Shown: one piece after another, positions 42,936 through 56,612 of the stretch
How the letters are laid out: each line of letters opens with the position of its first letter
Position numbering within the stretch: position 1 is the first letter of the stretch
From: Spirochaetia bacterium
GTDB taxonomy: Bacteria; Spirochaetota; Spirochaetia; Sphaerochaetales; Sphaerochaetaceae
Assembly (NCBI GenBank): GCA_022482625.1
Contig: JAKVOU010000001.1
Location: 2,094,784-2,158,783, forward strand
Direction of reading: 5' to 3'
Length of the DNA: 64,000 nt
The notes under the pieces: generated by a model
Database searches by the model: none
The model's input: the letters and a program-made list of their open reading frames with translations, nothing else
What the model was told of the DNA's origin: nothing
Made by a program: the position numbers and the translations under genes

Positions 42936-43859
42936 CTATGAAAGTTGGTTTGTACTTTCAATTTTCTGCATCAAGAGAAGCAAGGGTTGCCACCATTCAT
43001 GTTGGTCTGGGTCTGCACCGATACTCCTTATTTTCTTCAATCGGTAACGCACCAAGCTGTCTTTATTCTTCTTGCAGAGGATATCAAGATCCTTTCGGAT
43101 AGTTTCTCTTATGGCCTGGGCTGTAAAATCTGGATCTGCCTGGGCTCCTTCTTCGACTTCAGGAATAATACCATTGATGATTTTCAAAGCAAGAAGGTCT
43201 CTGGAAGTCATTTTCATGATATCAGCGGCTTCCTCGGCCTTACTGGGATCATGCAGGAGTATTGATGCAAAACCTTCAGGAGTGATGACTGAATATACTG
43301 CGTTCTCCAAAAGGTATATCTTGTCTGTGATGCCGATACCCAAGGCGCCACCACTACCGCCTTCACCGATGATGAAGCTTATCGTGGGTATCTTGAGCAA
43401 AGCAAATTCCCTGAGGTTTTTCGCTATGGCTTCGCCGATACCCCGTTCTTCTGAATCAATGCCGGGATAAGCTCCTGGTGTGTCGATGAAACTGATCAAG
43501 GGACGATGGAACTTTTCTGCCTGTTTTGCCAGCCTAAGAGCTTTTCTGTATCCTTCGGGTCTGCTCATACCATGGTTGCAATCAAGATTTTCCTTGAGGT
43601 TTGAACCTTTTTTTATGCCGATGACCGTTACTGGTCTGCCCTCGAACAGTGCAATGCCACCTATCATTGCAGGATCATCTCCGAAAGCACGGTCTCCATG
43701 CAGTTCCATAAAGTCATCAAAGAGCAGATGTATGTATTCCATTGTACCTGGACGTTTGATATCCCTGGCCAGCTGCACGCAATTCCATGCAGATCTCGGC
43801 GTTACTGCTTTATCAACAGAAGACAGCCGTTTCTTGATTGTCTGATAGTTATTGTTCAT
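42936..43859 (-). CDS. accA: Acetyl-CoA carboxylase carboxyltransferase subunit alpha
   Basis: A 307-residue carboxyltransferase alpha subunit, which with AccD moves CO2 from biotin to acetyl-CoA. Signatures are ARDIKRPGTMEYI, FMELHGDRAFGDDPAMIGGIA, ISFIDTPGAYPGIDSEERG and the glycine-rich IIGEGGSGGALGIG. The start overlaps the accD stop by 4 bases. Last gene of the accBCDA operon. Confidence 0.97.
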   Translation of the reverse strand: MNNNYQTIKKRLSSVDKAVTPRSAWNCVQLARDIKRPGTMEYIHLLFDDFMELHGDRAFGDDPAMIGGIALFEGRPVTVIGIKKGSNLKENLDCNHGMSRPEGYRKALRLAKQAEKFHRPLISFIDTPGAYPGIDSEERGIGEAIAKNLREFALLKIPTISFIIGEGGSGGALGIGITDKIYLLENAVYSVITPEGFASILLHDPSKAEEAADIMKMTSRDLLALKIINGIIPEVEEGAQADPDFTAQAIRETIRKDLDILCKKNKDSLVRYRLKKIRSIGADPDQHEWWQPLLLLMQKIESTNQLS

Positions 43860-44632
43860 GTTGCCTCATGTGTCCGCAATAGGAACGAAAGTGTCCTGTG
43901 CAGGTCTTTTCTCTCGACGATGGCATCAAGAAATCCATGTGATTGTTGGAATTCAGAAGTCTGAAAGCCTTTAGGCAGTTTTTCTCTGATGGTTCCCTGT
44001 ATGACTCTGGATCCTGCAAAACCTATCAAAGCCTGTGGTTCTGCAAGTATGACGTCTCCGAGCATGGCAAAGGATGCCGTAACGCCACCCATCGTTGGGC
44101 TGGTCAGCAGAATGAAGAGTGGTACGGCAACTTCACCCATCAATGCAGCCGCCGCGCTTGTCTTTGCCATCTGCATCAGGGAGAAGATACCTTCCTGCAT
44201 CCGAGCACCGCCACTGGCCGTACAGATGATCAGAGGGAGGTCTTCAAGTGCAGCTTTGATCATTGCTGCTGTAATTTTTTCTCCTACGGTGGCTCCCATG
44301 GAGCCTCCCATGAAATCGAAACTCATGACGCAGAGTATGACCTTCTTTCCGTCAATCGTACAAGTTCCTGTAGAAACTGCATCATTCTGCCGTGCCTTTT
44401 CCTTATTTTCCTGTAATTTTTTATCATAGCCGGGAACTCCTAATAAATTCGTTGCTTTCATGTCCTCGGCAAATTCTTTATAAGAGCCATCATCACAGAT
44501 AAGGGTAAGCCTTTTCTCCCAGTCCATCCTGAAGTAATGGTGGCAGTATGGGCAGATGTCTAGATTTTCTTCTAGTTCTTTTTCAGAAAGCTCCCTGTTG
44601 CATCCAGGACAGATTTTTACTGATTCCTTCAT
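43856..44632 (-). CDS. accD: Acetyl-CoA carboxylase carboxyltransferase subunit beta
   Basis: A 258-residue beta subunit. The N-terminal zinc ribbon is CPGCNRELSEKELEENLDIC followed by PYCHHYF. The carboxyltransferase core follows (MSFDFMGGSMGATVGEKI; ICTASGGARMQEGIFSLMQMAKT; TSPTMGGVTASFAMLGDVILAEP). It overlaps accC and accA by 4 bases each, giving equal translation of subunits. Confidence 0.97.
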   Translation of the reverse strand: MKESVKICPGCNRELSEKELEENLDICPYCHHYFRMDWEKRLTLICDDGSYKEFAEDMKATNLLGVPGYDKKLQENKEKARQNDAVSTGTCTIDGKKVILCVMSFDFMGGSMGATVGEKITAAMIKAALEDLPLIICTASGGARMQEGIFSLMQMAKTSAAAALMGEVAVPLFILLTSPTMGGVTASFAMLGDVILAEPQALIGFAGSRVIQGTIREKLPKGFQTSEFQQSHGFLDAIVERKDLHRTLSFLLRTHEAT

Positions 44633-45954
44633 AGTTTTCCTTCCTTTTCCAGGATGTCGTAAAGATCAGTTGCGAACTTACCGCTGGAAAACTGTTCGCT
44701 GTCCAATATGGTTCTTACTGCTTCTTTGTTTGTATGAATGCCTTGTATATCCAATTCGTCCAGAGCTTCATGCATGGTCCTTATGGATTCTTCCCTGCTG
44801 TCTGTATGTACGATGATCTTTGCCAACAAGGCATCATAGAAAGGACTGACCGTATAGCCTTCATACAGATGGGAATCACAACGTATGCCGCAGCCGATCG
44901 GTGGGATGAACTTGGTGACCTTTCCACAGGAAAGGGCATTTATCCTGACTTCGAGTGCATGTCCCTGGAGCGGTGGATCTTCTCCCAGGCATCGTGAAGG
45001 AATCCCGTCACTTATGAGGACCATCTGTTTTACCAAATCAATGCCCGATACGGCTTCCGAGACTGTGTGTTCGACTTGGATTCTTGCATTGACTTCCATG
45101 AAACAGCAGTTGTGATCCTGTATAAGGAATTCAATGGTTCCTGCACCTTTGTACGCCAAAGTACGGAACAGATTTACAGAAGCTTTTCTCAGTCGAGTCC
45201 TTAAGTCTCTTGAAACGACAGGAGAGGGACTTTCTTCAATAATTTTCTGATGATTCTTTTGCACGGAGCAGTCTCTTTCACCAAGAAAGATTACATTGCC
45301 GTTACCGTCGGACAAGAGCTGTACTTCTATATGCCTGGGATGTTCCAGGTAGGCTTCCATATGAACTGTACTGTCACCAAAGAACAATTTGGCTTCTTTC
45401 TGTGCAATGCCAAGTCCTTCTGCAAGTTCCTCTTCCTTGCGTATGATTCTCATTCCTTTGCCGCCGCCTCCCAAGGAAGCTTTGAGTATGATGGGATAGC
45501 CGATATCCTTTGCGGTTTTCTTTGCTTCCTCAATGGTCTTGACTGCGCATTCTGAACCAGGAGTAATATCCAGGCCTGTGGCTTTTGCCTTTTTTCTGGC
45601 TTCAATCTTGTTACCTAGCAGATTGATCGTGGTGGGGTCTGGTCCGATGAAGATGAGACCCGCTTGACAGACTCTGTCGGCAAATGTTCCGTTTTCGCTG
45701 AGGAAACCTACTCCTGGATGAATTGCCTGGCAATGTGTATAGAGTGCTGCTGCAATAATATTCTGCATGTTGAGATAACTGCTTTCACAATCTTTATCCC
45801 CGATGCAGATAGCCTCATCTGCCATTTTCGTCCAAAGTCCATCGGCATCTGGTCGGGAAAAAACAGCAACGCTGCCTATTCCCATCATTTTCAGGCAACG
45901 GATGATTCTTACGGCAATTTCTCCACGATTTGCTACAAGCACTTTGGTGATCAT
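44629..45954 (-). CDS. accC: Biotin carboxylase subunit of acetyl-CoA carboxylase
   Basis: A 441-residue ATP-grasp enzyme that carboxylates biotin on AccB. It starts ITKVLVANRGEIAVRIIR, has the glycine-rich ATP loop KASLGGGGKGMRII, then ERDCSVQKNHQKIIEESPSP and FMEVNARIQVEHTVSE. I place the start at ATG 45954, which overlaps the accB stop by 4 bases and matches the family N-terminus; the frame is open further to 46032 inside accB. Confidence 0.97.
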   Translation of the reverse strand: MITKVLVANRGEIAVRIIRCLKMMGIGSVAVFSRPDADGLWTKMADEAICIGDKDCESSYLNMQNIIAAALYTHCQAIHPGVGFLSENGTFADRVCQAGLIFIGPDPTTINLLGNKIEARKKAKATGLDITPGSECAVKTIEEAKKTAKDIGYPIILKASLGGGGKGMRIIRKEEELAEGLGIAQKEAKLFFGDSTVHMEAYLEHPRHIEVQLLSDGNGNVIFLGERDCSVQKNHQKIIEESPSPVVSRDLRTRLRKASVNLFRTLAYKGAGTIEFLIQDHNCCFMEVNARIQVEHTVSEAVSGIDLVKQMVLISDGIPSRCLGEDPPLQGHALEVRINALSCGKVTKFIPPIGCGIRCDSHLYEGYTVSPFYDALLAKIIVHTDSREESIRTMHEALDELDIQGIHTNKEAVRTILDSEQFSSGKFATDLYDILEKEGKL

Positions 45955-46385
45955 AGTGGTTTTACCTTGAACAGAGGTTGCCCGAATTCTACCAATGAGC
46001 CTTCCTGTGCCAGTACTTCCATGATTTTGCAATCTTCATCTGCTGGCATTTCGTTCATCATTTTCAATGCTTCTATAATGCAAAGTGTCGTGCCTTTTGT
46101 TATTGTCGTACCGACAGGAGCAAATGGCAAAGCATCAGGAGATGGTGCGCTGTAGAAGGTGCCTACCAGGGGAGCTGTGATTGTCTTATATGTTTCTGTG
46201 CCAGATTCTTTGCAGTCTCCTTCAGAAAATTCCTTTATTACAGGGACAGAACTCTGTGCTGGACCTGAGGAGTTTTTTTTCATATGTAATCTGCATCCCT
46301 CAACTTCAAGTTCAAGTTCCGTCATGGAACTGCTATTGAAAAGGGCTGTGATATCCTTGATTGTCTTGATGTCGATATGTTCCAT
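45951..46385 (-). CDS. accB: Biotin carboxyl carrier protein
   Basis: A 144-residue carrier. The N-terminal segment (DIKTIKDITALFNSSSMTELELE) is the usual AccB start, a Ser/Glu-rich linker follows, and the biotinyl domain has the biotinylated lysine in EALKMMNEMPA and ends in GQPLFKVKPL. A GAGGTG box precedes the ATG. First gene of accBCDA, divergent from fabH across a shared palindrome. Confidence 0.97.
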   Translation of the reverse strand: MEHIDIKTIKDITALFNSSSMTELELEVEGCRLHMKKNSSGPAQSSVPVIKEFSEGDCKESGTETYKTITAPLVGTFYSAPSPDALPFAPVGTTITKGTTLCIIEALKMMNEMPADEDCKIMEVLAQEGSLVEFGQPLFKVKPL

Positions 46386-46444
46386 AATTCACCTCATGTA
46401 GCAGAAGTATTGACTATGTTTTATAATTACAGTATTTCTAATTT

Positions 46445-46460
46445 ATGTCAATATTGACAT
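46445..46460. promoter_or_regulatory. Shared palindromic operator across the divergent acc and fab promoters
   Basis: ATGTCAATATTGACAT is a perfect 16-bp palindrome. Its right half supplies TTGACA (46454-46459) for the fab operon, followed 18 bases later by TATTAC (46478-46483). Its left half, read on the other strand, supplies TTGACA (46446-46451) for the acc operon, followed after about 16-18 bases by an AATTAT-like -10. One dimer bound here would block both -35 boxes. Confidence 0.7.
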
Positions 46461-46499
46461 TTTTTTAAAATGTGTAGTATTACATATACAGGAGATGAC

Positions 46500-47435
46500 A
46501 TGATACGTCAAGCATCGATAGATATAACGGCAGTAGGTGGTTACCTGCCTTTGAAGGTAGTAGTGAATGATGATTTTGCCAGCATGGTAGCTACCAGCAA
46601 TGAATGGATAACTTCACATACAGGCATCAGGGAAAGGCGTTTTGCTTCTGTTTCTATGTTGACAAGCGACATGGCTGCGGAGGCTGCACGAAGCATGTCT
46701 GTCGATTTGAGTGATGTGGACGGGATTATTGTGGCTACGGCTACTCCTGATTATCAAGGATTTCCATCAACTGCCTGTGTATTGGTTGAAAAACTTGGGC
46801 TCAGTCAGGTGAAAATTGCCTTTGATCTTGTGGCAGGTTGCACTGGATTCGTGTATGCACTGGAACAGGCCAGGGCACTTGTCCATTGTGGCAGTTGCAG
46901 AAAAATGCTTGTCGTGGGTGCTGAGAAGATGTCTTCTGTCCTTGATTTTTCTGACAGGAATACCTGTGTACTTTTCGGAGACGGAGCTGGATGTGTGATC
47001 GTTGAAGAAGGGGACGGACTCAAACGAACCTTGCTGGGCGTTGAAGGCAAGGGAGCTGATAGCCTATATATCAATCAATCACGTCATATCGTCATGAATG
47101 GGCGGGCGGTCTATAACTTTGCCGTAACAAAGATGACTGAAATAATTGCAAGATTGACGCAGGAAGAAGGAATAAGTCTTGCAGATATTTCATGGATTGT
47201 ACCTCATCAGGCAAATGAGAGGATTATAAAGGCTGCAGCAGAAAGGCTGGGTGTCGATGTCGAAAAGTTTTACCTCAATGTCAGCCGCTATGCCAATACC
47301 AGTGCGGCAACAATTCCATTGGCATTATGGGATATGGAAAAGGAAGGAAAGCTGAAACAGGGTGATATCCTGTTGCTTGTTGCTTTCGGTGCAGGCCTTA
47401 CGTATGGAGGAAATTGTCTGGTATGGAAAAAATAA
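46500..47435 (+). CDS. fabH: 3-oxoacyl-ACP synthase III
   Basis: A 311-residue initiating condensing enzyme that joins acetyl-CoA (or a branched acyl-CoA) to malonyl-ACP. The catalytic triad is visible: Cys in DLVAGCTGFVYAL, His in WIVPHQANERI and Asn in RYANTSAATIPLA. The start (ASIDITAVGGYLP; TSNEWITSHTGIRERRF) is standard. I chose ATG 46500 with AGGAG upstream. First gene of the fab operon; its end overlaps fabD. Confidence 0.97.
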   Translation: MIRQASIDITAVGGYLPLKVVVNDDFASMVATSNEWITSHTGIRERRFASVSMLTSDMAAEAARSMSVDLSDVDGIIVATATPDYQGFPSTACVLVEKLGLSQVKIAFDLVAGCTGFVYALEQARALVHCGSCRKMLVVGAEKMSSVLDFSDRNTCVLFGDGAGCVIVEEGDGLKRTLLGVEGKGADSLYINQSRHIVMNGRAVYNFAVTKMTEIIARLTQEEGISLADISWIVPHQANERIIKAAAERLGVDVEKFYLNVSRYANTSAATIPLALWDMEKEGKLKQGDILLLVAFGAGLTYGGNCLVWKK

Positions 47436-48373
47436 TTGTTTCATTTCCTGGCCAGGGAGCCCAGTATCCCGGTATGGCTATGGACTTCTATAAACAGAGT
47501 GCTATGGTCAGGGATTTGTTTGGACAGGCTTCTGATGCCTGTGGGCTTGACTTGAAGAAGCTTCTTGAAAGCGGAAATGCAGAGAAACTGAAAGATACCC
47601 AGGTTGCACAAGCTGCCATTGCCTTGGCAGATCTTGCCAGTCTTGCCATATTGGAGGAAAAAGGTTGTATTCCCGCAGCTGCTGCAGGTTTCAGTCTGGG
47701 AGAATATGTAGCCTGTTACGCTGCAGGAGTCTTTGATATCCCTACTTTGTTTCAGCTTGTGGGGCTACGTGGCCGTCTGATGCGTGCTGCCTGTGAATCT
47801 GCTGTAACCTCATATGGCAAGCTTATGATGGCTGCTGTAATCGGTATCAACAGGGAAACCGTAGACAGAATATTGGAAGAAAATAAAGCTGATGGGCTCT
47901 TTTTAGCCAATGACAACAGCACCCGCCAGGTAGTTCTGTCAGGCAGGGAAAGTGAATTGGAGCGGTTGCTTCCGGTCTTCAAGAAGGCTGGAGCCAGAAG
48001 AATTGTTCCTTTGTCAGTTTCAGGACCTTTCCATTCGCCATATATGGCACAGGCAGGAAGAGAATTTGCCAAGCGAATTGGGTCGATACCTTTCAATGAT
48101 CCAATCATACCGATTTTCAGCAATGTGACTGGGGTACCTATGTTGACCGGACAAGAGGTCAAGGAACTGGCAGGATTGCAGATTACCAGTACCGTTGCGT
48201 GGAGAAAAACGATGGAATCAATCATTGCAAGTTTCGATAAAGATGTGCTGTATGTTGAAGCTGGCCCAGGTAAGGTCCTTACAGGATTTTGGAAAACAAT
48301 GGATGTAAGTTGCTGCCCTTGCGGGACCATGGAGGCAATAGAGAAAACTATGGAGAAAAAAGACAATGTGTGA
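47423..48373 (+). CDS. fabD: Malonyl-CoA:ACP transacylase
   Basis: A 316-residue transacylase that loads malonate onto ACP. Motifs: FPGQGAQYPGM, nucleophile in GFSLGEYVACYA, and the catalytic histidine in SGPFHSPYMA. It overlaps fabH by 13 bases and fabG by 8. I chose ATG 47423, with GGAGG upstream inside fabH. Confidence 0.96.
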   Translation: MEKIIVSFPGQGAQYPGMAMDFYKQSAMVRDLFGQASDACGLDLKKLLESGNAEKLKDTQVAQAAIALADLASLAILEEKGCIPAAAAGFSLGEYVACYAAGVFDIPTLFQLVGLRGRLMRAACESAVTSYGKLMMAAVIGINRETVDRILEENKADGLFLANDNSTRQVVLSGRESELERLLPVFKKAGARRIVPLSVSGPFHSPYMAQAGREFAKRIGSIPFNDPIIPIFSNVTGVPMLTGQEVKELAGLQITSTVAWRKTMESIIASFDKDVLYVEAGPGKVLTGFWKTMDVSCCPCGTMEAIEKTMEKKDNV

Positions 48374-49085
48374 CAGAAACATGAAGAAGGCCATCCTTAC
48401 CGGGGGATCCAGAGGTATCGGTCTTGCAATAATCAAGGCATTGCTGGCTGACGGGTATGAAGTCTGGTATCTCAGCAGGACTCCGATTTCAGAAGAAATA
48501 GCAGGGACCGCACATCATCTTAGCTGTGATGTGATGGATCGGATGGCTTTTGAAAAAGCCCTGAAGACAGCAACGGAAGAAGCTGGAGAAATAAGCCTGC
48601 TGGTCAATGATGCCGGTATTACCCGTGATGGATTGATTATGAGAATGAAGGATGCGGACTGGGATGATGTCCTGAAAGTCAATCTTACTTCTGTATTTCT
48701 GTCCTGCAGGGCTTTGTCAAGGCAGTTCCTGCGTCAGCGCTATGGCGTAATCATTAACATAGCAAGCGTTGTCGGCATTGTAGGTAATCCAGGACAGGCA
48801 AATTATGCGGCATCAAAAGCAGGAATAATCGGATTGAGCAAGAGCCTTGCAAAAGAATTTGCTTCCAGAAATATACGCGTCAATTGTATTGCTCCTGGCT
48901 TTATTGATACCAGTATGACACAGAAGCTCAATGAAGAACAGAAAAAGTCAATTTGTGACAAAATTCCGCTTGGTTACATCGGAGATGCAGAGCAAGTCGC
49001 CAAGGCTGTACGTTTCTTGGCTTCTGCTGATGCATCATACATAACCGGACAGGTATTGGCCGTCGACGGCGGCATGACCATGTGA
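48366..49085 (+). CDS. fabG: 3-oxoacyl-ACP reductase
   Basis: A 239-residue short-chain dehydrogenase that reduces 3-oxoacyl-ACP with NADPH. The cofactor motif is LTGGSRGIGLAI, and the catalytic residues are in NIASVVGIVGN and YAASKAG. The C-terminus VDGGMTM is typical. The start is ATG 48366 or 48381; the second begins MKKAILTGGSRG, a more typical N-terminus. Confidence 0.96.
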   Translation: MCDRNMKKAILTGGSRGIGLAIIKALLADGYEVWYLSRTPISEEIAGTAHHLSCDVMDRMAFEKALKTATEEAGEISLLVNDAGITRDGLIMRMKDADWDDVLKVNLTSVFLSCRALSRQFLRQRYGVIINIASVVGIVGNPGQANYAASKAGIIGLSKSLAKEFASRNIRVNCIAPGFIDTSMTQKLNEEQKKSICDKIPLGYIGDAEQVAKAVRFLASADASYITGQVLAVDGGMTM

Positions 49086-49095
49086 GGGACAGACA

Positions 49096-50353
49096 ATGGA
49101 AAAACAGAGAAAAGTAGTAATCACAGGTATGGGAACCGTAAATCCCATCGGCAAAGATGTTGCAGAGTTCTATACCAATATTCGCAAGGGCAGTTGTGGA
49201 ATTTCTCGCATCACACGGTTTGATATCACTGATTATCCTGTCAAGATTGCAGGAGAGGTCAGGGATTTCGAACCATCCCTTCGCATTGACAAGAAGAATT
49301 TGAGGTCCATGGCCTTGTTTTCACAATTTGCTGCCTATGCAGCACAGGAAGCCATGGAAATGGCAGGCATCGGTGGCAAGGCTGAGGATGGCAACAGGAT
49401 AGGTGTCTATGTCGGCAATGGGATAGGAGGCTTTGATGTTGCAGAAAACAACTTGGAGAAGCTTTTTCCCAGAGGCCCTCGGGCGATATCTCCGCTTACT
49501 ATCCCTATGTTGATTGGTAACGAGGCTGCCGGTAATATTGCCATACTCCATAATCTCCAGGGGCCGTGCCATACCATCGTTACGGCTTGTGCTTCGGGGA
49601 CAGATGCCATAGGCACTGCCTTTCTGGCCGTCCGTTCAGGACTGGTTCGACATGGCTATTACCGGTGGCACGGAAGCTGCCATTACCAGGCTTGCAATGA
49701 GCGGGTTTGCAAGACTCCATGCCTTGTCTGCTTCTCATAATGATGATCCCCTTCATGCCAGTTCTCCTTTTGACAAGAACCGTGATGGGTTTACCATGGG
49801 AGAAGGTGCCGGTATGCTTGTCATTGAAAGTGAAGATTCGGCAAGAAGCAGAGGTGCTGTCATCTTGGGTGAAATTCTAGGTTATGGGGCGTCCTGTGAT
49901 GCTTTCCATATCACTTCTCCTGAACCTTCGGGCATCGGTGCAGCAAAGGCAATGAAGGAAGCCTTGTCTATGGCCGGTCTGGGTACATCTGATATAGACT
50001 ATATCAATGCGCATGGTACCAGTACCCCTGCCAATGATGCAATGGAAACCAATGCCATTAAACTGGCTTTCGGTGAAGATGCCTATCGCCTGAAGGTATC
50101 TTCAACCAAGGGAATGACAAGTCATCTTGTCGGAGCAGCAGGAGCTGTAGAGGCAATCGTGTGTGTGAAATCAATCCAAGAAGGATATTATCCTGCAACG
50201 ATCAACTATCACACTCCTGATGAGCAATGTGATCTTGACTATGTGCCTAATATAGGTATTGATGCGCCGATGCACTATGCGCTCAGTGAATCCTTGGGCT
50301 TTGGAGGTCACAACGGGGCACTGGTGTTCGGCAGCTATGAGGAGAATAGATAA
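49096..50353 (+). CDS. fabF: 3-oxoacyl-ACP synthase II, split by a one-base frameshift
   Basis: The first frame (49096 to about 49648) carries VITGMGTVNPIGKD, the gatekeeper region and the catalytic Cys in IVTACASGTDAIG. The second frame (about 49648 to 50353) carries MAITGGTEAAITRLA, the histidines in NAHGTSTPANDAMETNAI and SHLVGAAGAVEAI, and the end SLGFGGHNGALVF. Removing one base from GGTTC at 49644-49648 joins them and gives 418 residues, the normal FabF size. All catalytic residues survive. With no other fabF or fabB in view, the indel is probably a sequence error. Confidence 0.9.
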
Positions 50354-50355
50354 CC

Positions 50356-50781
50356 ATGGAAATTACTGACATATTGTTACACCGGAAACCCTTTCTTTTT
50401 GTCGATACCATCGAGAAGGCTGATGAAAAGCAGATTGTCGGTACTTACACGTACCGTGAAGATGAATTTTTCTTCAAAGGGCATTTCCCTCAATATCCTG
50501 TTGTCCCCGGTGTCTTGCTTATTGAGTTCCTGGCACAGGTGGGGGGAGCAGGCCTGGGCATGACGCAGGTGCTTGCCCCCGGTTCACTTTTTGTCCTCGG
50601 TACGGTCGAGAAGGCAAAGTTCCGCCATCAGGTACGACCCGGCGATACTGTCAGAGGTGAAGTGGAGAACCTTAGGGTTTCAAGTCATATCATCCGTCAG
50701 CAAGGCAAGGTAAAAATCGGAGATATAATCTGTGCCGAGGCTTCATGGATGTGTCTGTTGTCAGGAGAAGGAGACAGGTAG
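50356..50781 (+). CDS. fabZ: 3-hydroxyacyl-ACP dehydratase
   Basis: A 141-residue hot-dog-fold dehydratase. Active-site His is in FFKGHFPQYPVVPGVLLIE and Glu in LLIEFLAQVGG. It makes trans-2-enoyl-ACP for FabV. It starts 2 bases after the fabF stop; its stop is one base before the fabV start. Confidence 0.96.
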   Translation: MEITDILLHRKPFLFVDTIEKADEKQIVGTYTYREDEFFFKGHFPQYPVVPGVLLIEFLAQVGGAGLGMTQVLAPGSLFVLGTVEKAKFRHQVRPGDTVRGEVENLRVSSHIIRQQGKVKIGDIICAEASWMCLLSGEGDR

Positions 50782-50782
50782 A

Positions 50783-51979
50783 ATGATCATAGAGGAAAAA
50801 GTCTTGCATGGGGTATGTCTGACCGCGCATCCTACTGGGTGCAGGACATATACGACAGATGAAATTACGTTTGTAGAAGATGCCTGCAAAGGGCTTGAGG
50901 GAGATAGATACAAACCCTTTGAAAAAACACATCCGAAGGCGCTTGTCCTTGGTTGTTCAACAGGATATGGTCTTTCCAGCAGGATAGTTTTGTCTTTTGG
51001 CTGTGGAGCTGATACACTTGGTGTTTCTTTTGAGCGAAGTCCGAAAAAAAACAGATGTGCGACGCCTGGCTGGTACAATACCAAGGTGTTTGAGGAAAAA
51101 GCAGCACATGAAGGTCTCTATTGCAAGACATTGGACGGTGATGCTTTTTCTGATGCTATGAAACAACAGGTAGCACAGCTCATCAAGGAAGAACTGGGCA
51201 AGGTGGATTTGGTCATCTATAGTCTGGCTTCCCCTGTCAGGATTGATCCTGTGACTGGTGAGACATACAAATCCGTACTCAAGCCGGTCGGTAAGGATTT
51301 TACTTCCCTTTCTCTTGATCCTGCGACTGGTCAGATTGGTCAGGTAACACTGTCTGCTGCAGATGAAAAGCAGGTCGAGGCTACCATCAAAGTGATGGGA
51401 GGTGAAGACTGGTTACTTTGGATTGATTATCTTTCAAAACAAGGATGTCTTGCTGATGGTGCAAAAACGATAGCTTATTCTTACATTGGGCCGAATATTA
51501 CAGCACCTATTTATCGAAATGGTACTATCGGTCAGGCAAAAAAGGATTTGGAACGTACTGTTCCGAAATTAAATGGAATCATGGCTGGGATCGATGGCAA
51601 AGCCTATGTATCTGTAAATAAGGCTTTGGTAACAAGGGCAAGTGCCGTTATACCTGTAGTGCCTCTTTATATAACAATTCTCTATCGAATAATGAAACAG
51701 AAAGGGTTGCACGAAAGTTGTATAGAACAGATGTATAGGCTATATCGTGACAAGTTTCCTGCGGAAATGGTAGAAGAAGATGGACTCCTACATATGGATG
51801 ACTTTGAAATGCAGCAGGACGTTCAGGATGAGGTTAGGAAAATCTGGGCGACACTGCACGAGGGACAGGTCATTGGAGATGAGGAACTGGAGCAATTCCG
51901 AACGGACTATGCACATCTTCATGGATTCGGTTATCGGACAATTGACTACGGTAAGGATGTTGATCCATTGAATCCTTAG
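50783..51979 (+). CDS. fabV: Trans-2-enoyl-CoA/ACP reductase, FabV type
   Basis: A 398-residue NADH-dependent enoyl reductase of the FabV/TER family, much longer than FabI. Family blocks: TAHPTGC near the N-terminus, LVLGCSTGYGLSSRI, GADTLGVSFE, LVIYSLASPVR, VMGGEDWLLWI, and the Tyr-x8-Lys region IAYSYIGPNITAPIYRNGTIGQAKKD. It completes the elongation cycle and replaces FabI/FabK, neither of which is seen. Start ATG 50783 has AAGGAGACAGG upstream; the longer frame from 50732 overlaps fabZ and is not supported. Confidence 0.95.
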   Translation: MIIEEKVLHGVCLTAHPTGCRTYTTDEITFVEDACKGLEGDRYKPFEKTHPKALVLGCSTGYGLSSRIVLSFGCGADTLGVSFERSPKKNRCATPGWYNTKVFEEKAAHEGLYCKTLDGDAFSDAMKQQVAQLIKEELGKVDLVIYSLASPVRIDPVTGETYKSVLKPVGKDFTSLSLDPATGQIGQVTLSAADEKQVEATIKVMGGEDWLLWIDYLSKQGCLADGAKTIAYSYIGPNITAPIYRNGTIGQAKKDLERTVPKLNGIMAGIDGKAYVSVNKALVTRASAVIPVVPLYITILYRIMKQKGLHESCIEQMYRLYRDKFPAEMVEEDGLLHMDDFEMQQDVQDEVRKIWATLHEGQVIGDEELEQFRTDYAHLHGFGYRTIDYGKDVDPLNP

Positions 51980-52256: not shown

Positions 52257-53216
52257 TTAATGATATAGGGATAGAATTCCTTCCAATAAATAAACAAACC
52301 TACTTCTGAAGTTCTCTGGTTCGAGAATTTCTACGGAATTTCCACATTGGATGATTTTGAGAAGCAGGTCTGTAGAATTTTCGACATCCATGGTACAAAT
52401 AGAGTAACCATCAAAATTTTCAATCTTTGGTTCATCATGATTGAGGCCATGGAATACGTTCATTGCCGATTCTTCCTTTATTTTCAGAGAGAGGTGAACC
52501 ATGTCGATGGAATCGTAGCTGTCACTCTCTTCAGGACGTTTGAATGGTTTCAGATTATCTGGGATAGTATAGGTCTGATCTAAGATGACAGCCTTTGTAA
52601 TGGTGCTGATATCTATGGTTACCATTTCCGGAGTATGCCGCAACCGTCCTGTTACGCTTATGGGATTCCTGCCTGTCGAATCTTCCCTGAAACCGATAAA
52701 ATAAGGGGCCAGTTCTGTTTCGCTTTTCTTTTCCCCGATTTTTTGTTCAATCTTTACGATTCTGCCAGAGACCCAGGAATCTATCAGGACATCAAGTATG
52801 CTGCTGTATTGGCTATTGCCGCTTTTTTTCTGGACTTCTTTGTCTATTTCTTCTGCCAGCTGCATGATATTTTCGCTGATTTTCGGTGCATAGACTCTCA
52901 TGCTCAGTGCAATTTTTCTCAGGCCTGAAGCAAGATGTGGATTTTGGAATTCAGTGTTTTGGGCCAGTATTTCTGCAGACATATTGAATGCAAGACTTTC
53001 ATAGACGGACAATTCAATGTTTTCGTCTTCATTTTTGTTTCTGATTTTGATGAGATTGTTTTCTTCATATACGTCAATATATTGACTGAGGTCCGTAACG
53101 TATCTGCTGATAGTTGACCGATGTACGCCAAGTCTCCGTGCTATTTCTGCTCTTCTCAGGCCCTCAGGATGGGAAAGCAGGAGCAATTCCAATTGTGCAA
53201 CTCGTTCTCCTTTCAT
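52257..53216 (-). CDS. HTH regulator with WYL domain
   Basis: A 319-residue regulator. The N-terminal helix-turn-helix is LRRAEIARRLGVHRSTISRYVTDL. Helical and WYL/WCX-type domains follow; the usual Trp-Tyr-Leu motif is degenerate (RIVKIEQKIGEKKS; APYFIGFRED), but the C-terminal ending SVEILEPENFRSRFVYLLEGIL is typical. WYL proteins respond to nucleic acids or small ligands. The target is unknown, and its nearest partners are a rubredoxin gene, slyX and a lipid thioesterase. Its promoter is buried in an inverted repeat, suggesting autoregulation. Confidence 0.88.
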   Translation of the reverse strand: MKGERVAQLELLLLSHPEGLRRAEIARRLGVHRSTISRYVTDLSQYIDVYEENNLIKIRNKNEDENIELSVYESLAFNMSAEILAQNTEFQNPHLASGLRKIALSMRVYAPKISENIMQLAEEIDKEVQKKSGNSQYSSILDVLIDSWVSGRIVKIEQKIGEKKSETELAPYFIGFREDSTGRNPISVTGRLRHTPEMVTIDISTITKAVILDQTYTIPDNLKPFKRPEESDSYDSIDMVHLSLKIKEESAMNVFHGLNHDEPKIENFDGYSICTMDVENSTDLLLKIIQCGNSVEILEPENFRSRFVYLLEGILSLYH

Positions 53217-53648: not shown

Positions 53649-54491
53649 TCATTCTACCTCAATCCTGGGTTTCCATGTAGTTTTGGCTTCAAATACCTTT
53701 GATTTGCTTCCGTCCTGCTCATCTTTCCAAATCTGATGAAAAAAAATCGGAGCTGGCCCAGAAAAGGGATTGTCAGCATCACTGAATGTCTGTACATGGA
53801 TATGGTCAGCAAGGAAAGTCTGTCGAAGCCATGAAACAGTAATCTGAGAAACCTTGTAGAGATCCCTGAAATCATTGGGCATTGCAGTAAGCAACCAGTT
53901 GATATAAGCAACATTGTTGACATGATGGTTGGAGTCTGTTACTCCGTAGGTAACATCTGGCTGTGTATGTGATATTTCCTGTATATCCTTTGGTATGATC
54001 CTTGATATTCGGGGAGGAAGTGCACAGTGCTGGGGGTAACGCTCACTATCTGTAGGCTGTATAAGTTTTTCCATGATTTTGGAAGGCACACGGGGCCGGC
54101 CTGTGTTGGTATCCAGGATTGCCCAGAAGGTTTTTGCAAGAAAACATCTTTTGCCATACTTGTCGTAAGCACGAACAGAACGGGGGATAAAGATACCTGA
54201 TGGATTCTGTGCCCAGGTTTCCATGTGGACGACTTCTGGCCAATGAGGATATCGGTCAATTTGCATCTCTGTGTGGGTAATGACCCATGTACAGCCTATC
54301 TCATGCAATTCAGGAATACTGCAATGACGCTGTACTGCGTGGAACGCCGCCATTTCCTGTGCCAATTCAAAGAACCAACTAAGTTTTGCAACCATATGGC
54401 TATCTTCGTTATAGGTATAGCTTCTAAAGTCTTCTCTGAAGACATTGTCTGCATCTATTTCTCTCAGTCCGTCAAGATCCATGGGCTGCAT
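53649..54491 (-). CDS. Acyl-ACP thioesterase (FatA/FatB family)
   Basis: A 280-residue double hot-dog enzyme that releases fatty acids from ACP. The N-half has FREDFRSYTYNEDSHMVAKLSW and WVITHTEMQIDRYP; the C-half has the catalytic-type block TDSNHHVNNVAYINWLL, equivalent to the plant Asn/His active site. It may supply free acids for exogenous-type phosphorylation or for cofactor synthesis. It lies near the fab locus and overlaps the rsmD stop (TAATG). Start ATG 54491 or the Met three codons later. Confidence 0.92.
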   Translation of the reverse strand: MQPMDLDGLREIDADNVFREDFRSYTYNEDSHMVAKLSWFFELAQEMAAFHAVQRHCSIPELHEIGCTWVITHTEMQIDRYPHWPEVVHMETWAQNPSGIFIPRSVRAYDKYGKRCFLAKTFWAILDTNTGRPRVPSKIMEKLIQPTDSERYPQHCALPPRISRIIPKDIQEISHTQPDVTYGVTDSNHHVNNVAYINWLLTAMPNDFRDLYKVSQITVSWLRQTFLADHIHVQTFSDADNPFSGPAPIFFHQIWKDEQDGSKSKVFEAKTTWKPRIEVE

Positions 54492-55327: not shown

Positions 55328-56293
55328 CTATGCCATGTCTTTCAAAATAGTACATCTTGTCTGTATCAACCCTTTTAGACTGGTTTTCAATGGCTTCTGT
55401 AGATATGAGCTATCAATGATAGGGTTGAAGGAACTTGCTTTTTCAATCAGCTCGTCCATCATGTTGAGGATTGCCTTGTCATTGATTCCAAGATTCTGAC
55501 CCAAAGCAATGAAATCCTTGCGTCCTATCTTGTTTTTTTTGCCGTTCAATGTCAGTGCAGTTTGTTCCGTATCCATGGGATTGACCAGCTGTACAGGCAG
55601 AAGGTCATAGGCTTTCGACAGGCGAAAGGCATGGTTTTCATTTTCAATCAACGAAAAATTCTTCAAGTGCATGTCTGAGTTTCCTGTGATGAAGTTGAAC
55701 AGGGTAAGTCTGAAAAACCCTGTGATATCTATCCCAGGCATTGAAGACCATTTCCTGATAATCTTTCCGCATTGCTCATATGAACCTTTGTATTTGTCTT
55801 CAGTAAGGCGTTCTGAAAGTTGACAGAAGTCCTCCATCTGCAATTTGTTTTTTCCTTTTCTGTCTATTCGCTTCGTAATATATGCAGGTGTCCCATCCTT
55901 CATAAGGATCAATGCATGCGGAACCGTCGGAATACCGATTGAATCTGCAAGCAACATGACGGTGTGTTCTGCTTCCGGTAATTGTTGGTAGCCCTTGCTT
56001 TGGGGTTTCAATATGAATCCTGCAGGGTAGCCGATGAGCGTCAATCGAAAATCCTTTTTATGTATGTTTTCGGAGCTTAGGTGTAGGGATAGTTTCTTTT
56101 GAATGCCTGTAACGGTAAGTCCTTTCTGAACAGTTTCTTCTGCAAGTCTGTTGATACCCTCATCATCCAGCTGTAACCGAGGAAGAGAAGAAGTACTGAA
56201 GAATTTCTTTATGCAGCCTTGATGCCATCCGGTAGCATATTCATTTTGTAATTCCAATGGTCTTCCACAACAAAGGCAATGATCATATTTCAT
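55328..56293 (-). CDS. hipT: HipT-like toxin kinase
   Basis: A 321-residue kinase of the HipA core type without the N-terminal subdomain. A short Cys motif (CLCCGRPLE, then WHQGCIKKFF) opens it, followed by the glycine-rich region TVTGIQKKLSLHL, the ATP-lysine segment FILKPQSKGYQQLPEAEH, the catalytic loop ITGNSDMHLKNFSL and the metal site AYDLLPVQL. HipT of the tripartite system phosphorylates tryptophanyl-tRNA synthetase in E. coli; the target here is unknown. Autophosphorylated serines in the loop of known HipT appear as Thr-Val-Thr here. It overlaps hipS by 11 bases. Confidence 0.88.
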   Translation of the reverse strand: MKYDHCLCCGRPLELQNEYATGWHQGCIKKFFSTSSLPRLQLDDEGINRLAEETVQKGLTVTGIQKKLSLHLSSENIHKKDFRLTLIGYPAGFILKPQSKGYQQLPEAEHTVMLLADSIGIPTVPHALILMKDGTPAYITKRIDRKGKNKLQMEDFCQLSERLTEDKYKGSYEQCGKIIRKWSSMPGIDITGFFRLTLFNFITGNSDMHLKNFSLIENENHAFRLSKAYDLLPVQLVNPMDTEQTALTLNGKKNKIGRKDFIALGQNLGINDKAILNMMDELIEKASSFNPIIDSSYLQKPLKTSLKGLIQTRCTILKDMA

Positions 56294-56612
56294 CTGCTAC
56301 CACGCTCACAGCACCGATGCAATCTTTGCAAGTTGTCATCAACAGTCCCATTCTGTCATAGGAATTAAGATTCCATTTTTTGATGGCGATATTCAGCAAC
56401 CACCCTTCTGGAATCAATCCATCAAAAAAAGGAAAGAATGTCTTGCTCTTATATGGTTGTTTTTGCAGGGGAAGTGTCAGGCTTATCGGAAGTGCATCTT
56501 TATCCATGAGGTAGTTTTCCGTATAGATGAATTCATACCCATCTTCGGTTTCCTTTATGGTTCCTGCTTTCTTGTCATACATGTACACTGATCCTTGTCG
56601 TTTGTCGGTCAT
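56283..56612 (-). CDS. hipS: HipS-like antitoxin (HipA N-terminal subdomain)
   Basis: A 109-residue protein equal to the N-terminal subdomain of HipA on its own: VYMYDKKAGTIKETEDG, ISLTLPLQKQPYKSKTFFPFFDGLIPEGW. In the described E. coli system HipS neutralises HipT, with a tryptophan blocking the active site; Trp71 here, in GLIPEGWLL, is the likely counterpart. It is coupled to hipB by an ATGA overlap and to hipT by an 11-base overlap, giving a compact three-gene operon. Confidence 0.85.
   Translation of the reverse strand: MTDKRQGSVYMYDKKAGTIKETEDGYEFIYTENYLMDKDALPISLTLPLQKQPYKSKTFFPFFDGLIPEGWLLNIAIKKWNLNSYDRMGLLMTTCKDCIGAVSVVADEI

Follow-up and report, generated by a model that had tools for sequence, protein, structure and literature searches.

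A conserved palindrome over the -35 boxes of divergent acc and fab operons in Spirochaetia, a probable operator of a TetR-family regulator

A perfect palindrome, ATGTCAATATTGACAT, lies between the divergent acc and fab operons in the window (the whole 64,000-nucleotide stretch of DNA that was analysed) and spans the predicted -35 boxes of both. Its 14-bp core, TGTCAATATTGACA, is kept at the same place in related genomes, and an orthologous group of TetR-family proteins accompanies it. Probably a homodimeric TetR-family regulator uses the palindrome as its operator, co-represses acc and fab, and also acts on genes of acyl-chain handling. It is also reasonably likely, if somewhat less so, that this regulator is an undescribed, orthologous master regulator of lipid synthesis found across several families of the class, whose operator doubles as both -35 boxes. 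We infer three things here, namely binding of the TetR protein to the site, repression, and the ligand that is sensed.

The divergent operons and their promoters

The genes and predicted promoter elements are as follows.

42936–43859, minus strand: accA, carboxyltransferase alpha (TIGR00513, 357 bits, above cut-off)
43856–44632, minus strand: accD, carboxyltransferase beta, of zinc-finger type by sequence (open reading frame, place in the operon, same order in relatives)
44629–45954, minus strand: accC, biotin carboxylase (PRK08591, 559 bits, cut-off 597; TIGR00514, 527 bits)
45951–46385, minus strand: accB, biotin carboxyl carrier protein (TIGR00531, 123 bits, cut-off 115)
46423–46431, minus strand: extended -10 of the acc promoter, TGT-AATTAT, 17-bp spacer (predicted from consensus)
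46445–46460, no strand: perfect palindrome ATGTCAATATTGACAT
46446–46459: conserved 14-bp core TGTCAATATTGACA, proposed operator, kept in relatives
46446–46451, minus strand: TTGACA, -35 box of the acc promoter (sequence and spacing table)
46454–46459, plus strand: TTGACA, -35 box of the fab promoter (sequence and spacing table)
46476–46483, plus strand: -10 region of the fab promoter, AGTATTAC, with TG before it (predicted from consensus)
46500–47435, plus strand: fabH, first gene of the fab operon (TIGR00747, 344 bits, above cut-off)
47423–48373, plus strand: fabD (TIGR00128, above cut-off)
48366–49085, plus strand: fabG (TIGR01830, above cut-off)
49096–50353, plus strand: fabF, two reading frames with an apparent frame shift near 49,645 (reading of the open reading frames)
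50356–50781, plus strand: fabZ (PRK00006, above cut-off)
50783–51979, plus strand: fabV, enoyl reductase, last gene of the fab operon (PF12241, PF12242, PF07055)

AccB, FabH, FabD, FabG, FabZ and AccA all scored above curated NCBIfam cut-offs, AccC fell slightly under the cut-offs of both its curated models, and FabV carries three trans-2-enoyl reductase Pfam domains. The accB gene starts at 46385 on the minus strand. For fabH the start is most plausibly 46500 on the plus strand, after AGGAG, and the listed start of the open reading frame at 46470 would then be an upstream in-frame ATG. The two frames of fabF are split at 49630–49660 by an apparent single extra base (GGACTGGTTCGACATGG); possible causes are a sequencing error and a genuine frameshift, the gene being an important one. 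An acyl-ACP thioesterase gene (53649–54491, PF01643), whose promoter lacks the motif, follows the fab operon at a distance of a few genes. Further on, two adjacent open reading frames (55328–56612) resemble a split HipA-type kinase and are adjoined by a small HTH gene, an arrangement like that of a toxin-antitoxin system.

The first-pass annotation had placed, within 46423–46483, one palindrome over the -35 boxes of both operons with an AT-rich -10 at promoter distance on either side, and both parts of this description were confirmed. The core is composed of two TTGACA hexamers, one on each strand, with TA in between. On the accB side a -10-like AATTAT, preceded by TGT, is found 17 bp from the -35 box, and on the fabH side the -10-like AGTATT or TATTAC, preceded by TG, is found at a spacing of 16–18 bp. 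Beside the latter, the TGTA of TGTAA (46471–46475) is near-invariant in the window and 26 relatives, exceeding the -10 hexamer in this respect. A similar TNACA occurs 13–14 bp outside the outer arm of the site at the alcohol dehydrogenase promoters described below, though no gene starts there. Possible readings of TGTA/TNACA are an additional half-site and a second, hidden promoter.

Perfect palindromes of 16 bp are expected by chance 0.98 times in 64 kb and one was found, so that palindromy alone proves nothing and the actual evidence is conservation. The exact element is present as a single copy in the 3.47 Mb genome from which the window derives, while at up to three mismatches 49 copies were counted in that genome versus 14 for the reversed control.

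Conservation of the site and its further targets

Relatives of the locus were gathered by homology of the AccB protein alone, with no use of the motif. Of the 16 divergent loci (the window's own included), 15 have the core, 13 in exact form and two with a single mismatch at the outer end. The partner divergent from accB is fabH, or fabD in one genome (G024). AccB identity to the window ranged from 33 to 48% over the listed full-length comparisons and, for the divergent loci only, from 40 to 55% over the matched stretch, the value of 55% coming from one partial match. The sixteenth locus (G060) has the acc and fab operons as a divergent pair and is without the palindrome, its best match having four mismatches. 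Among the loci of the AccB homology set, the core was absent where accB sits in other gene orders. Alignment of 26 divergent loci gave the consensus AT-TAACA-N-TGTCAATATTGACA-N14-TGTAATAA, which reads as predicted back-to-back -35 boxes with the -10 boxes outside, and the central TA of the core is invariant at the acc/fab loci. As a separate observation on gene order, in genome G019 (L359, 6463–7110) a gene resembling the redox regulator Rex is immediately followed by a fatty acid operon of fabK type.

A scan of 395 genomes of the class returned 59 exact copies of the core in 50 genomes, versus 2 for the reversed pattern. In 39 genomes, belonging to four families, the site is located at acc/fab, at a fabH beside a sugar kinase, or at an iron alcohol dehydrogenase. 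Absence of the motif from related genomes had been named beforehand as grounds for dismissing the proposal; instead it is kept at the same place in nearly all of the divergent loci and appears in three further families by the exact scan. The other exact copies are mostly within coding genes, and those found in lepA and in an ABC ATPase gene in several relatives were judged to be chance on account of their coding position. A scan of the named genome collection brought up no close relatives.

Further targets suggested by the position of predicted sites are an acyl-CoA synthetase gene and, in relatives, an alcohol dehydrogenase gene. In the genus of the window, the acyl-CoA synthetase gene beside asnS, from which it diverges at a distance, carries the site with no mismatches in G003, one in G001 and two in the window's own genome (G000). 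In genus g17 the site stands upstream of an iron alcohol dehydrogenase. Promoters of this gene were gathered by protein homology and 14 of them were readable. The gene-side TTGACA is present in 13 of the 14 and the outer arm is YGTY in all of them, with the full outer hexamer in only 4, and the neighbour on the outer side mostly runs in the same direction, i.e., there is mostly no divergent gene. The retention of the outer arm as YGTY without the full hexamer implies a function other than that of a -35 box, which favours a protein operator of the form TGTY-N6-GACA.

Two of the lipid genes that had been suggested as places to look for the motif did not hold up as targets: PlsX was found neither in the window's genome nor in five genomes of the group, and the acpP operon is without a site, its best match, with three mismatches, being inside the next gene, which is rnc-like. 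Near-perfect copies, TGTCAATATAGACA and TGTCAATAATGACA, were also observed in genus g17 (L135, 990–1515, and L136, 994–1515) before a two-gene unit which encodes a 159-aa protein without a Pfam match and a second iron alcohol dehydrogenase. In the window's own genome, a one-mismatch copy TGTCAATAATGACA is located just upstream of a small unknown gene (L162, 3379; G000:C1:153878), with a solute-binding protein gene on the opposite side, and this gene is a possible further target.

A candidate regulator of the TetR family

Regulators of the TetR and MarR families were surveyed in 11 site-bearing genomes. The candidate in the window's own genome is a TetR-type gene at G000:C1:2242341-2242952, which is 83 kb outside the window and upstream of clpB. 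Its product contains the TetR_N domain (PF00440) at G000:C1:2242380-2242511 with 52 bits against a cut-off of 24, placing it in the TetR family, and its ortholog in family f17 scored 61 bits with the same model. In five genomes of two families the tetR gene is the next one after fabV and is transcribed the same way (G149, G135 and G119 of f17; G208 and G244 of f26), and in three others of f26 (G239, G279, G291) it is found on the same contig, approximately 5 kb from the site. Genome G119 has the TetR gene within the fab operon, yet the outer arm of its site is lost.

Homology searching identified one clear TetR ortholog per genome, mostly with E-values of 1e-31 to 1e-103, whereas paralogs did no better than about 1e-15. 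Orthologs (E up to 1e-30) were found in 118 of the 395 genomes overall and in 38 of the 39 site-bearing genomes, a co-occurrence with a Fisher p of 3e-21 that is inflated by shared descent, the genomes not being independent. About 80 genomes have the TetR protein and not the exact site. In G060, the genome with a divergent locus and no palindrome, the TetR protein is also absent. In G003 and G285, both of them draft genomes, the site is present and the homology search did not find the TetR protein.

Sites were recognised at the promoter of the tetR gene itself in other lineages. These comprised TGTCAATATTAACA with one mismatch in G109, a weaker site TGTCAATAAAAACA with three mismatches in G039, and, in G014 and G031, a perfect TGTC-N6-GACA palindrome, TGTCTTTTTAGACA, 21 bp before the start codon. 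The tetR promoter of the window's own genome, where the gene adjoins clpB and not fab, has no recognisable site (best match with 4 mismatches, p 0.31).

Within the TetR group the DNA-binding region is more uniform than the ligand domain (mean majority 0.84 versus 0.63). The nearest NCBIfam model to the candidate is that of FadR of Bacillus (NF053878), with 48.2 bits and an E-value of 1e-12 against a cut-off of 200; the FasR model (NF053731) gave 39.2 bits against a cut-off of 330. Among its best PDB matches is 3whb, which is a regulator of fatty acid metabolism. As FadR and FasR are nearest and the scores are far under their cut-offs, the candidate is closest to lipid regulators and outside those equivalogs.

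Several other genes were considered and rejected. MarR genes near acc/fab in G025 and G109 are each beside a MATE pump and are not conserved with the site, and an HTH regulator in the window (52257–53216, approximately 319 aa, convergent with fabV) has no relative beside fab in the other loci compared. In G230, a TetR gene near an exact copy has an unrelated palindrome (GCGATCA..TGATCGC) at its start, and the exact copy, farther upstream, was taken as chance. The palindrome concerned (GCGATCAGTTGATCGC; L186, 1640–1690) is followed by a similar one, GAGATCAATTGATCTC, and resembles that TetR protein's own operator.

Proposed regulation and its alternatives

The following mechanism is proposed. 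A TetR homodimer on TGTC-N6-GACA would hide both abutting -35 boxes from RNA polymerase, such that malonyl-CoA supply and chain elongation would be turned off together while it is bound and both turned on upon its release. The same protein would act on the acyl-CoA synthetase gene in the genus of the window and on the iron alcohol dehydrogenase gene in another genus. Repression is proposed as the sign of control because the site lies over the -35 boxes and the candidate belongs to the TetR family. A long-chain acyl-CoA or acyl-ACP is the probable signal, by analogy with FadR of Bacillus and FasR.

One alternative does without a regulator: two consensus -35 boxes would stand back to back around a central TA, kept by the need for strength in both promoters. 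TGTCAA-TA-TTGACA is indeed exactly two abutting -35 hexamers, and -10-like sequences are found at 16–17 bp on both sides in nearly all divergent loci. This explanation is nevertheless unlikely: it does not account for the YGTY arm at alcohol dehydrogenase promoters, where there is mostly no divergent gene and the arm is no longer a -35 box, nor for the TGTC-N6-GACA palindrome that G014 and G031 have just ahead of tetR, nor for the central TA being invariant as well at acc/fab, and in G060 the divergent pair exists without a palindrome. It is about as improbable that the site is the operator of a regulator from another family, with the TetR link incidental. The survey covered TetR and MarR families only, and the window's own tetR gene sits beside clpB with no clear site at its promoter; against this, the TetR gene is linked to the fab operon in two families, tetR promoters of other lineages carry sites, and the co-occurrence extends to all but one of the site-bearing genomes.

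The lowest probability is assigned to the operator serving an activator, or a dual activator/repressor, or to the two promoters competing for RNA polymerase through their shared -35 region. FasR of mycobacteria (the subject of model NF053731), a lipid regulator of the same fold, is named as an activator, but a protein bound over the -35 boxes, as it would be at this site, normally keeps polymerase out. Competition is known at the bidirectional promoters of E. coli, in which a short symmetrical sequence gives two divergent transcripts from a shared -10 element, whereas in the present arrangement it is the -35 boxes that adjoin, with the -10 boxes outside (PMC12825309).

Co-repression by the TetR-family protein therefore remains the preferred reading, and it can be compared with systems already described. 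Most of what has been worked out on the control of fatty acid synthesis comes from Proteobacteria, Firmicutes and Actinobacteria. FapR and FabT are Firmicutes fatty-acid repressors of fab operons with the operators TTAGTACCTRRTACTAA and TTTGATNATCAAA; they belong to other protein families, and TGTCAATATTGACA is unlike either operator. FadR of Bacillus subtilis (TetR family, PDB 3whb) is alike in being a lipid regulator and has the closest NCBIfam model, but it controls degradation genes and its operator, TGAATGANTANTCATTCA, is unlike the one described here. In Corynebacterium glutamicum the TetR-type protein FasR represses accBC, accD1 and the genes of both fatty acid synthases through fasO operators (PMC6460773). 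The likeness to FasR would lie in TetR-type control of acetyl-CoA carboxylase and fatty acid synthase genes, with a predicted site common to acc and fab. The fasO sites, however, are separate and serve type I synthases, while here there is one 14-bp site for divergent acc and type II fab operons. In Thermus thermophilus, FadR is a TetR dimer that binds a 15-bp pseudo-palindrome at lipid operons (PMC5597230); its consensus, TTRNACYNRGTNYAA, misfits TGTCAATATTGACA and its targets are mainly degradation genes.

The earlier suggestion of one regulator for acc and fab, distinct from FapR and FabT, thus stands as the best reading of the predicted site, given its conservation and the TetR candidate found, and the idea that a new fatty-acid regulator is involved gains support, with the orthologous TetR group as its putative identity. 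No paper on such a regulator in comparable organisms was found in the open literature, most subscription journals being outside the coverage of this search. With gene, operator and target set all named, control of the whole pathway is directly testable in this lineage. One site on two -35 boxes would be a compact lock of malonyl-CoA supply to its use and, if the proposal is true, the same 14 bp would specify both promoter strength and coordinate repression.
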